Positions 2,873 to 7,250 of a stretch of DNA of 32,061 bases are shown one piece after another. The stretch's first letter is position 1. Every line of letters starts with the position of its first letter. The notes beneath the pieces are model-generated. The model was not told where the DNA came from. It saw only the letters and a list, made by a program, of their open reading frames with translations, and did no database searches. The translations under genes and the position numbers were made by a program. This DNA comes from Candidatus Nomurabacteria bacterium (GTDB taxonomy: Bacteria > Patescibacteriota > Minisyncoccia > Phycocordibacterales > UBA2100): the NCBI GenBank assembly GCA_943356775.1, contig CALRFU010000010.1, forward strand, positions 1 through 32,061, written 5' to 3'.

Positions 2873-4306
2873 TTAGGAGGCTATTTTCTCCTTCAGGAGT
2901 TCCCTAAGCTTCTCAGGATTACCGGCTCCTTTGAGGGCTTTCATGCATTGTCCCAAAAGAAATTCAAGAGCTGCACCCTTACCAGCCTTGAAATCTTCCA
3001 CCACTGAGGTGTTTTTCGTCAGGACGTCATCTACTATCGTTCCGATATCTGCGCCTGTAAAACTGAATAATCCCCTCTCTTCCGCCAGGACATCCGGATC
3101 CTTACCACTCCGCATAGATTCAATCAACAAATCCTTTGCCGCCCGCGAAGAAATTCTCTTACCGGCAACCATCTCGATTATCTTTTTGAAATTCTCCGCT
3201 GATATTGTGATTTTGGATTGATATCCTGTATCTCGTTTCTCGATATCTCGCACAATCTTTACGAGGTCATTAGCAATGTAGTTACTCGCGAGAAGTATGC
3301 CCGCACTGTCTGATTTCATCAAGGCTATAACGTCCTCAAAGAAGCTCCCAAGCGCTGATTCCTGAACATACAGCTGCGCATCGTCAGCCTTGATACCGAT
3401 TGCCAGATATCGCTCCCGTCGCTCCCACGGAAGCTCTGGCATCGTTGCGTTGAGAGATTCCTTGCTGAATTCTGGCACTTCCGAGAGCTTAAGCGATGGC
3501 AAATCAGGATCAGGGAAAAACCGATAGTCAGCGCTCCCCTCCTTGATACGCTGAGAGAACGTGGCCTGCTTACCGTCATCCCAGCCGCGCGTCTCTTTCA
3601 CGATCAACCCGCCACTTTCCAATTCGTCTATCTGGCGCTGTATCTCGTACTTTACGGCGCGTTCCATGGCGTTAAAAGAGTTTATGTTCTTGAGCTCTAC
3701 ATATGCCTGCGCTCGCGATCCATCTTTGCTCACGGAGACGTTGGCCTCCACGCGCATCTCCCCTTTCTCCATATTTGCGTTACTCGCTCCCAAATATTTG
3801 AGGAGCAACTGCAATTCACGCGCAAATGCCCCAGCCTGTTCTGCACTCTTTATCACGGGCTCAGTCACGAGTTCCATGAGTGGTACTCCCGCGCGATTGT
3901 AATCAATCGTCGTGCCTACCCCCTCCTGATGCATAGAGCTTGCTGTATCTTCTTCGAGATGGATACGTGTGATTTGTACACCTGCGAGTTCTCCGCCTGA
4001 AACAAGAGGAAATTCAAATTGGCTCAGCTGATAGCCTTTTGGGAGGTCGGGATAGAAATAATTCTTGCGATCAAACTCCGTGTAATCAGCGAGCTCAGCG
4101 CCAAGAGCAAGGCCAACGCGCAAAACCTGTCGCACGGCTTCCCCGTTGATTACAGGTAACGTACCCGGATGTGCCATGCACACGGGGCAGATATTTACAT
4201 TGGGCTCTGTTGCGTCTGCATCGTTCTTGGAGCAGCAAAACATCTTGGTATGCGTCTTGAGCTCTGCGTGTATCTCCAAACCGATTGTGGGCTCGTATAT
4301 CGCCAT
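2873..4306 (-). CDS. gatB: Aspartyl/glutamyl-tRNA(Asn/Gln) amidotransferase subunit B
   Basis: MAIYEPTIGLEIHAELKTHTKMFCCSKNDADATEPNVNICPVCMAHPGTLPVIN... with GatB/YqeY C-terminal domain. ORF could extend to 4342, but MAIYEPT is the family-like start. Confidence 0.95.
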   Translation of the reverse strand: MAIYEPTIGLEIHAELKTHTKMFCCSKNDADATEPNVNICPVCMAHPGTLPVINGEAVRQVLRVGLALGAELADYTEFDRKNYFYPDLPKGYQLSQFEFPLVSGGELAGVQITRIHLEEDTASSMHQEGVGTTIDYNRAGVPLMELVTEPVIKSAEQAGAFARELQLLLKYLGASNANMEKGEMRVEANVSVSKDGSRAQAYVELKNINSFNAMERAVKYEIQRQIDELESGGLIVKETRGWDDGKQATFSQRIKEGSADYRFFPDPDLPSLKLSEVPEFSKESLNATMPELPWERRERYLAIGIKADDAQLYVQESALGSFFEDVIALMKSDSAGILLASNYIANDLVKIVRDIEKRDTGYQSKITISAENFKKIIEMVAGKRISSRAAKDLLIESMRSGKDPDVLAEERGLFSFTGADIGTIVDDVLTKNTSVVEDFKAGKGAALEFLLGQCMKALKGAGNPEKLRELLKEKIAS

Positions 4307-4353
4307 ATGGGCGTACTCTACCACCCCAACACCCCCAACCAAAAACCTCGAAG

Positions 4354-4484
4354 GGGCGGCGTTCGAGAGGGCTCAGAGAACCTCGCGCAGCAAACAAAGA
4401 AGCGTGAAAGAAATCGCGCAGTGGTGATGCGCGTTGGAAACACCATGAACATTATGTTCGGTTGAGTTCTCTCGAGCGCCGCCC
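4354..4484 (+). ncRNA. Candidate structured RNA (unknown family) with 21-bp closing helix
   Basis: Arms GGGCGGCGTTCGAGAGGGCTC (4354-4374) and GAGTTCTCTCGAGCGCCGCCC (4464-4484) pair at all 21 positions as + strand RNA (3 G-U); as - strand RNA the same three positions are A/C mismatches. Internal hairpins CGCGCA/TGCGCG (4415-4433) and GAACAT/ATGTTC (4447-4459). Confidence 0.5.
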
Positions 4485-4544
4485 AATCATCAAATGCTAC
4501 CGTCTCGCACATTCGAGAATCCGAGATTCTATGAAAAATAAGCC

Positions 4545-4563
4545 TATCTCGGCATCCGAGATA
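4545..4563. terminator. Hairpin terminator just after secA stop
   Basis: TATCTCGG-CAT-CCGAGATA two bases past the secA stop codon; followed on the - strand by GGCTTATTTTTC and on the + strand by ATTATTCTTT, so possibly bidirectional. Confidence 0.6.
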
Positions 4564-4564
4564 A

Positions 4565-7075
4565 TTATTCTTTGGCAATTTGCCACTCGCCGCTCGCAAG
4601 CAAAGGCTCTGCTTTCTTAAATTTCATCTCACGTCGCTCAGTACCATTCGTGATTGTTACCTTATCATTGCGACCGTGTCCGGTATTCGAAGGCACCCCC
4701 GAAGGTGCAGAAATCGTCCGTACCGCCTTGTGGATAACCTGCTCGGCTTTCGGTGCCCGTACTCCCCCCGTGGTCATGTTCGGCAGCACATTTGCAACCT
4801 GCGCCATATACGAATTCTCCATCGTCTGAAATAGTTTGAGGCCTTCTTTTTTGTACTCAACAAGCGGGTCACGTTGACCATATGCGCGAAGATTCACCGA
4901 GTTGCGGAGATACTCCATCGCCTCCAAATGTTCTACCCAAAGAAAATCTACTGTTTGCAAAAGGAATCGCCGCGTCATTGGATAGAACCCGTCTCCCAAT
5001 TCTTTTTTCTTCGATTCAATCATCTCTGCGAATCCTTCGTTCGATTCTGCAATACGCGTGAGCTCTTCGTCTATCGCGGAAATATCCCCGGTGAGGAGCG
5101 CACGACGACGCGTGTATATGCTTTGGCGTTGGATATTGAGAACGTCGTCGTACGAGAGTACGTGTTTGCGTGCATCAAAATTTAACTCTTCGATGCGCGT
5201 TTGCGCCTTCTCGAGCGCACGCGTTATCATCGAATTATAAATAGGCTCATCCTCGGGAATCTTAAACGTGCCCATGACACGCTTGATGACATCTGAGGCA
5301 AAGACACGCATGAGTGAATCCTCGAGCGAGACGAAAAACTGCGTCTCCCCTGGGTCTCCCTGTCGCCCGCTTCTTCCTCGCAGCTGATTGTCTATGCGAC
5401 GTGCTTCATGGCGCTCGGTGCCCAAGAGGAAGAGTCCGCCAGTCTTTTTTACTTCTTCAGACGCCTCATCACTCCCCGGATTCCCACCGAGCTTGATGTC
5501 GACACCGCGACCAGCCATGTTGGTCGCGATGGTGACGCCCCCCCTCTTCCCTGCCTGTGCGATGATTTCACCTTCTCGTTCGTGATTCTTCGCATTCAAT
5601 ATTTCGTGCGGGATTCCTTCCTGTTTAAAATGCGCTGAGAGGATTTCATTCTTCTCGACGGATACGGTACCGACCAAGACAGGCTGCCCTTTCTCATGCA
5701 ATTCGCGCACATGCCGCGCAATGGCCTTCATTTTTCCAGATTCGCTTTGGAAGATAAGGTCCTCGTGGTCTTTTCGCACCGCTACTTTGTTGGTCGGGAC
5801 GACGACGGTATTGAGCCCATAGACCTTGTAAAACTCCTCTGAGGAGGTCACCGCTGTACCTGTCATGCCCGCAAGTTTTTTATATAGACGGAAGTAATTC
5901 TGGAAAGTAATCGAAGCAAACGTTCTCGATTCTTGCTGCATCTCTACCCCCTCTTTTGATTCGATCGCTTGATGCAAGCCTTCAGACCAGCGTCTGCCCG
6001 GTTGTAAGCGGCCGGTAAACTCATCCACGATAACAATTGCGCCATCCTTCACGACATATTCCTTATCCCGCGCAAAAAGCGCCTTGGCACGGACGGCAGT
6101 CTCCAGGTGGTGCACGTACTTGATACCCGCATCGGTATAGATATTCTCAACACCGAGCGCACGCTGCGCCTTCTCGATGCCGCTATCGGTCAAGGATATT
6201 TGCTTGTGCTTGTGCTCAACCTCATAGTCTTCGTCTTGTATGAGCGACGCTGCTATCTGAGTGAAGCGTCCGTAGAGGGATTCAGCGTCGGAAACGGGAG
6301 CAGAAATGATGAGCGGCGTACGGGCTTCATCGATGAGGATGGAGTCTATCTCGTCGACGATAGCAAAGTGATAGGTATGCTGTCGTAAATTCCCTGATTC
6401 GTATTCCAGATTATCGCGCAGATAGTCGAAGCCGAATTCGTTGTTGGTACCGTAGGTGATATCAGCGGCATACGCCTCCCGTCTCGTACAAGGCCTGAGA
6501 AAATCCTGCATGACCTTGAATGCGCCCATCGTATCCCTTTCCGCATCCTCCTGCGCCAAAACTTCAGAGGACATGTGCGTGGGGTCATAGATGAATGATG
6601 CTTCGTGATTAATGATGCCCACCGAGAGCCCGAGCGCGTAGTAAATCTCGCCCATCCAGACTGCGTCGCGTCGCGAGAGGTAGTCGTTGACGGTAACAAT
6701 GTGCACGCCCTTCCCCGAAAGTGCGTTGAGGTACGCGGGGAGAGTCGCGACGAGAGTCTTTCCTTCTCCGGTGCGCATCTCGGCAATATCGCCGCGATGA
6801 AGTATCATGCCTCCTATAAGCTGAACGTCGAAATGTCTCTGACCCAAGGTACGCCGCGACGCCTCCCGCACCGCAGCAAAGGCTTCCGGGGCAATCTCAT
6901 CCAAGGTGGCACCCTCAAGAAGCCGCCCCTTGAATTCAGCGGTCTTTTCTTTCAGCGCCAGGTCGGAGAGCGCTTTCATTCCCTCCTCCTGCGCATTGGT
7001 GACCGCAACGATAGGCTCGGCGGCCCGTAGAGCTGCGAGATTCTCATCCCCAAATAGCCTCTTCCAAAATGTCAT
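4565..7075 (-). CDS. secA: Preprotein translocase ATPase SecA
   Basis: 836 aa; MRTGEGKTLVATLPAYLNAL, VDEIDSILIDEARTPLIIS, TIATNMAGRGVDIKLGG, GTERHEARRIDNQLRGRSGRQGDPG. Confidence 0.98.
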   Translation of the reverse strand: MTFWKRLFGDENLAALRAAEPIVAVTNAQEEGMKALSDLALKEKTAEFKGRLLEGATLDEIAPEAFAAVREASRRTLGQRHFDVQLIGGMILHRGDIAEMRTGEGKTLVATLPAYLNALSGKGVHIVTVNDYLSRRDAVWMGEIYYALGLSVGIINHEASFIYDPTHMSSEVLAQEDAERDTMGAFKVMQDFLRPCTRREAYAADITYGTNNEFGFDYLRDNLEYESGNLRQHTYHFAIVDEIDSILIDEARTPLIISAPVSDAESLYGRFTQIAASLIQDEDYEVEHKHKQISLTDSGIEKAQRALGVENIYTDAGIKYVHHLETAVRAKALFARDKEYVVKDGAIVIVDEFTGRLQPGRRWSEGLHQAIESKEGVEMQQESRTFASITFQNYFRLYKKLAGMTGTAVTSSEEFYKVYGLNTVVVPTNKVAVRKDHEDLIFQSESGKMKAIARHVRELHEKGQPVLVGTVSVEKNEILSAHFKQEGIPHEILNAKNHEREGEIIAQAGKRGGVTIATNMAGRGVDIKLGGNPGSDEASEEVKKTGGLFLLGTERHEARRIDNQLRGRSGRQGDPGETQFFVSLEDSLMRVFASDVIKRVMGTFKIPEDEPIYNSMITRALEKAQTRIEELNFDARKHVLSYDDVLNIQRQSIYTRRRALLTGDISAIDEELTRIAESNEGFAEMIESKKKELGDGFYPMTRRFLLQTVDFLWVEHLEAMEYLRNSVNLRAYGQRDPLVEYKKEGLKLFQTMENSYMAQVANVLPNMTTGGVRAPKAEQVIHKAVRTISAPSGVPSNTGHGRNDKVTITNGTERREMKFKKAEPLLASGEWQIAKE

Positions 7076-7199: not shown

Positions 7200-7250
7200 C
7201 TATCGGTGCTTCTTTGCCGTCTTCTTTGTTGCCTTCTTTTTCTTTGCCAT
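7200..7250 (-). CDS. 16-aa polybasic micro-ORF MAKKKKATKKTAKKHR
   Basis: - strand ATGGCAAAGAAAAAGAAGGCAACAAAGAAGACGGCAAAGAAGCACCGATAG in its own intergenic unit, with a terminator about 40 nt downstream; no clear Shine-Dalgarno. Confidence 0.5.
   Translation of the reverse strand: MAKKKKATKKTAKKHR

Follow-up and report, generated by a model that had tools for sequence, protein, structure and literature searches.

The spacer between secA and gatB in the window (the entire 32,061-nucleotide stretch of Candidatus Nomurabacteria DNA analyzed here) contains a segment, 4354-4484, that raises the question of whether it specifies a structured RNA of its own, as a preliminary description made from the sequence had suggested, or is an element of another kind. 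Reading and folding of the sequence showed that 4354-4375 and 4463-4484 form 22 base pairs, all of them standard when the + strand is read, and bore out the earlier statements that the arms pair at every position on this strand, that its three G-U positions become A/C on the - strand, and that the feature lies antisense to both of its neighbors, gatB (2873-4342) and secA (4565-7075) being encoded on the - strand. RNA folding gave the + strand an MFE of -72 kcal/mol (z -7.25; 0 of 200 shuffles were as low) and the - strand a weaker fold (-59.3, z -4.72), and DNA folding parameters keep this order of the strands (z -6.45 for + and -4.73 for -). The failure to recognize a known RNA also stood: no family of Rfam 15 matches the feature even at E<=5, related loci yielded no credible match in the same collection, ARAGORN detected no tRNA or tmRNA at the feature, and terminator scanning likewise gave nothing of use. 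In the window alone, three G-U pairs against no A-C are compatible with chance, so that polarity had to be judged on the whole family of related sequences. Taken together, our results indicate, with a probability of roughly 0.7, that 4354-4484 represents a copy of a mobile DNA element that is short, non-coding and non-autonomous, and not a regulatory RNA of secA or gatB.

A search of 60 relatives with a 151-base stretch returned partial matches scattered across their genomes, and the box GAACMTCGCGCAGCAAA, with up to 2 mismatches allowed, occurs as many as 18 times per genome. Of the two forms of the feature, one lacks and the other has a GA/GGK internal loop between the arm and GAAC/GTTC, and they served to build the models R1 and R2, respectively; R1 has matches in 21 of the 53 genomes of the genus (Kaiserbacteria/Adlerbacteria lineage, Paceibacteria), and 76 copies were taken into the analysis. 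One genome, G022, has 17 copies of the window family. The SecA of L214, the nearest named record, is 90% identical to that of the window. The extracted copies share a common plan, in which a conserved core of ~75-80 nt lies within long inverted arms of copy-specific sequence (Table 1). The core, near-constant in length, starts with the 5' box GAAC(A/C)TCGCGCAG and ends with GTTC, and the arms span 16-34 aligned positions. The preliminary description had proposed examining the fold by covariation, and the arms, hypervariable in sequence yet paired, do covary, 17 of the 19 pairs in the RNAalifold model showing double changes. The inner structure that it had drawn did not hold up: nearly all copies pair GAAC (4378-4381) with GTTC (4456-4459) in place of the suggested AACC/GGTT, neither of the two inner hairpins is conserved in the family, and no pair of the core covaries convincingly. 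Many copies keep outer boundaries of the form AGCGA(G)/GAGCG, which on the + strand could form tandem G.A pairs. Some copies of G017 and G009 (L061, L086, L140, L141, L150) are enclosed by a further inverted repeat, AGTATGTTTGAAA, so that palindromes are nested, and pairs of copies in opposite orientation, ~130-210 bp apart, are seen in four genomes (L048 at 1501 and 1708; L089 at 4609 and 4766; L074 at 1289 and 1501; L376 at 532 and 660).

Table 1. Parts of the feature in the window, with positions and conservation across the family
Part	Positions	Strand	Remarks
Left arm, GGGCGGCGTTCGAGAGGGCTCA	4354..4375	+	Hypervariable from copy to copy; folding, arm covariation
GA, left half of GA/GGK internal loop	4376..4377	+	Seen in the majority of loop-form copies
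GAAC, partner of GTTC 4456-4459	4378..4381	+	Nearly invariant, 63-64 of 65 sequences
Conserved 5' core box, CTCGCGCAGCAAA (family version MTCGCGCAGCRAA)	4382..4394	+	Family comparison
Remaining core, near-constant length, motif GCAGTGGTGAT conserved near the middle	4395..4455	+	No conserved base pairing
GTTC, 3' partner of GAAC	4456..4459	+	Family comparison
GGT, right half of GA/GGK internal loop	4460..4462	+	Family comparison
Right arm, complement of 4354-4375	4463..4484	+	Sequence reading, folding

Comparison of the arms in 74 copies upheld the polarity toward the + strand, although not by way of the G-U pairs to which it had been ascribed. The GU:AC ratio is 65:40 (p 0.019), a weak bias, and the strong signal comes from purine-purine against pyrimidine-pyrimidine mismatches, which stand at 103:22 (p 1e-13; 43:15 for isolated mismatches), p-values that overstate independence because the copies are related. 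Since purine-purine mismatches exceed pyrimidine-pyrimidine ones, the + strand is the one whose mismatches look tolerated, which supports it as the probable folded strand.

The distribution of the copies argues for mobility. Core identity is 0.60 within genomes (0.81 in G022) and 0.51 between genomes. The neighboring genes are ordinary housekeeping genes, and certain sites recur, namely the spacers at dnaA (7 genomes), secA (4), tsf (3) and pilC (3). When copies occupying one locus are compared across genomes, their identity (core 0.508, arm 0.31) does not exceed that of unrelated copies (core 0.509, arm 0.31); hence, we take this recurrence to reflect a preference for particular sites and not vertical inheritance, and on the same comparison (0.508 vs 0.509) we reject a regulatory RNA conserved at its locus. 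Thus the feature, earlier proposed as an RNA proper to the spacer between secA and gatB, appears as one of many dispersed mobile copies. A copy between L25 and pfkB in G000 has no counterpart in the orthologous spacers of either G003 or G061, empty sites in relatives that are 82-84% identical at the protein level, a distance at which other indel histories might still account for the difference; G003 retains one copy of the family and G061 none. The secA site itself is occupied in close relatives by a copy with other arms (G003), a decayed, different-armed copy (L214) and a member of the wider class described below (G061). In G022 a recent burst has left copies that share both arms and core, with arms never found alone. 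The notion of a core inserting into pre-existing arm hairpins is unsupported in G022 (zero arms-only copies), though it may apply in other genomes. The window family is thus short, non-coding, multi-copy, bounded by inverted repeats and polymorphic in insertion, as are MITEs, and no 8-bp TSD could be established for it, most of the exact matches going back to the AGCGAGCG motif or to palindromes in the arms.

The nearest gene on the 3' side is convergent for 48 of 73 copies and, in about half of those, lies 9-18 nt from the model end. That many copies begin 9-18 nt past the stop codon of the convergent gene, and that in G003, G061 and L214 the arm leads into a run of T on the secA strand, is what would be expected of a giant intrinsic terminator, or a stabilizer of the mRNA 3' end, that serves the convergent gene on the - strand and is selected locus by locus. 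We regard this as very improbable, in that the mismatch polarity points to the opposite strand, A-richness upstream of the left arm is weak overall, only a subset of copies has a GC stem with a U-run behind it on one strand, and many copies are located elsewhere, for instance in the divergent L25|pfkB spacer. The copies in the rnpA/dnaA (oriC) spacer of seven genomes (L047, L048, L051, L053, L067, L136, L152) lie near the DnaA-box-like TTATCCACA.

Weak R1 matches outside the genus are elements that share the 5' box (CCTCGCGCAG in L294), with L294 and L295 containing an additional second hairpin with the loop CAGCAG. The core of this wider class is also found inside long arms in G061, G071, G032 and L222, and a model built from it, R3, has matches in 187 of the 349 genomes and 96 of the 172 genera sampled in the order. 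Its two hairpins covary (98.5% paired, double changes in 12 of 13 pairs), and slid controls gave no such signal. The window family probably belongs with this class and looks like a derived branch of it; the two have the 5' box and the architecture in common, with L294-L296 as a bridge, and the relationship does not rest on full-length homology. In G075, from the genus of the window, at least 8 wider-class copies, with termini of the form (A/G)GTGCCTATCCCC..., show a perfect direct repeat of 8 bp, located at the same pair of offsets in each (e.g. TATTACGA, TGCGTATC, TATATCTT, GAGATGTG, GAGTTATT, CGACTATC and GACAGCTT). TSDs were not detected in five further wider-class genomes, where 2 of 30 copies gave a match against a null of 0.6. 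Six copies in G323 agree completely over a 58-nt core, while several of their arms (L360, L362, L364) are unrelated, each being at least 96% paired; set against G022 and G075, this indicates that arms accompany the core in some cases and are exchanged as a whole in others. A search with the arms in G075 recovered both complete and cut-off copies, none of which enclosed a transposase gene in the short stretches read. In five of its loci (L391, L394, L399, L400, L401) the left arm is kept and the core ends at various points, the search pattern being one that favors left ends. Several G075 insertion targets also resemble DnaA boxes. A scan of viral contigs for the core box gave only weak best matches (<20 bits), without arms.

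The composition of the helices bears on whether the folded molecule is RNA or DNA. Stems of tRNAs from the same genomes contain 5.3% G-U, with 16 G-U against 1 A-C (from only 14 tRNAs). The wider-class arms repeat the polarity (purine-purine to pyrimidine-pyrimidine, 85:18), its conserved helices contain G-U in only 4 of ~523 paired cells, and in the 7 bp of hairpin B, adjoining the loop, 238 of 238 pairs are Watson-Crick. This near-absence of G-U from the conserved helices favors folded single-stranded DNA, which would fit these patterns better than RNA, and the low G-U of the window family likewise suits it better than an RNA of the spacer. A family of structured non-coding RNAs, whose + strand is transcribed at many loci, whose core binds protein or acts in trans, and for which dispersal merely makes new gene copies, would agree with the strongly strand-polar fold, the covarying arms and the strongly covarying hairpins of the wider class. 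We nevertheless find it unlikely: the window family's core lacks conserved pairing, G-U is scarce relative to tRNA stems, a scan of 4200-4700 for sigma-70-like promoters found no site around the window copy, T is not enriched past the right arm across copies, and there are empty sites and TSDs, though transcription and mobility can coexist. Of the structured-RNA proposal, what survives is a real, non-random and strand-polar fold; for its identity as RNA we would substitute a family of mobile DNA hairpins.

RAYT transposases (TnpA-REP, Y1 HUH) work on folded single-stranded DNA, and strand polarity would also fit a REP/REPIN-like element mobilized by them. RAYTs are abundant in these genomes too: 47 of the 53 genomes of the genus have a PF01797 match, multi-copy in most, and the genes frequently have perfect, hypervariable palindromes beside them, are convergent to the next gene in 12 of 16 cases, and in G067 and G029 also lie immediately 3' of secA. 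The REP/REPIN/BIME systems with their RAYTs (REPtrons) share with our family intergenic, palindromic, dispersed and strand-polar hairpins, often just past stop codons, as in E. coli (PMC12306157). However, REPs are palindromes of 20-50 nt with a GTAG-type head (PMC8266576, PMC2817692), the reverse of a conserved ~80-nt core with free stems, and the family does not fit the definition by a short conserved palindrome with a GTAG/CGTC-type head repeated in inverted pairs around a RAYT gene, the RAYT flanks here bearing other palindromes. The hairpins at RAYT genes of the same genomes are unlike the element's arms or core on inspection, and CM searches combined with inspection gave no direct match between RAYT flanks and the element. 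Gene counts do not follow the presence of the element, G064 having the element without a PF01797 match, and the 8-bp TSDs of the wider class are unexpected for HUH enzymes and argue for an enzyme other than RAYT, at least in G075. Hence, we hold movement by RAYTs to be doubtful. The RAYT (Y1) genes in L195, L198, L205, L206, L208, L209, L211 and L212 each have the same perfect palindrome on both sides, different for each RAYT copy.

For the mobile DNA hairpins that we favor, we propose a putative enzyme acting in trans that would recognize the core and the folded + strand rather than the arm sequence, with recognition probably at the level of folded single-stranded DNA and not RNA. Such an enzyme would insert the element into intergenic DNA, preferring positions just past stop codons and the dnaA/oriC spacer, and the arms may be renewed wholesale during or after insertion. 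An 8-bp TSD points to a staggered-cut transposase and the strand polarity to a single-stranded DNA process, two indications at odds with each other. We tentatively entertain an order-wide class of Paceibacteria hairpins that is propagated by its core and gains or makes new, perfectly complementary arms of 25-30 bp on insertion, thus having sequence-free, structure-bound ends instead of conserved terminal repeats.

In MITEs (e.g. Correia elements) the terminal repeats are the conserved part. Our elements resemble them in being short, non-coding, multi-copy, intergenic and bounded by inverted repeats, with the G075 relatives having TIRs and 8-bp TSDs, and differ in that conservation is lowest in the terminal repeats and resides in the core, which in the wider class is conserved even across the order. 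Integron attC sites are recognized as folded single-stranded DNA with little need for a particular stem sequence, and a comparable recognition with free stem sequence may be supposed for the element from its sequence; unlike attC, it forms no cassette arrays, and its conserved core with a free outer stem is the reverse of the attC arrangement. This kind of element, in ultrasmall bacteria, is previously undescribed and absent from Rfam, and a literature search found no description of such an element in Patescibacteria. It constitutes an abundant repeat class in the streamlined, largely uncultured Paceibacteria, in about half of the sampled genomes of the order, with a pattern of conservation opposite to that of known miniature elements, a fixed middle and free ends. 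Were the arms indeed renewed at insertion, an unusual insertion chemistry would be implied. More generally, a spacer with strong covariation and strand polarity may be a mobile DNA hairpin rather than a regulatory RNA.

Other repeats were seen in the same material. Short repeated palindromes, ATCTCGG...CCGAGAT, directly follow the secA stop codon (window 4500-4564; secA 3' spacers L096-L110, L118, L125) and are kept in many species of the genus, possibly as a terminator or a separate conserved element. A perfect inverted repeat of 88 bp at a contig end (L090, 9234-9458) is probably an assembly artefact, and a tandem repeat with a 15-nt unit in 2.7 copies occupies 7209-7248 of the window.
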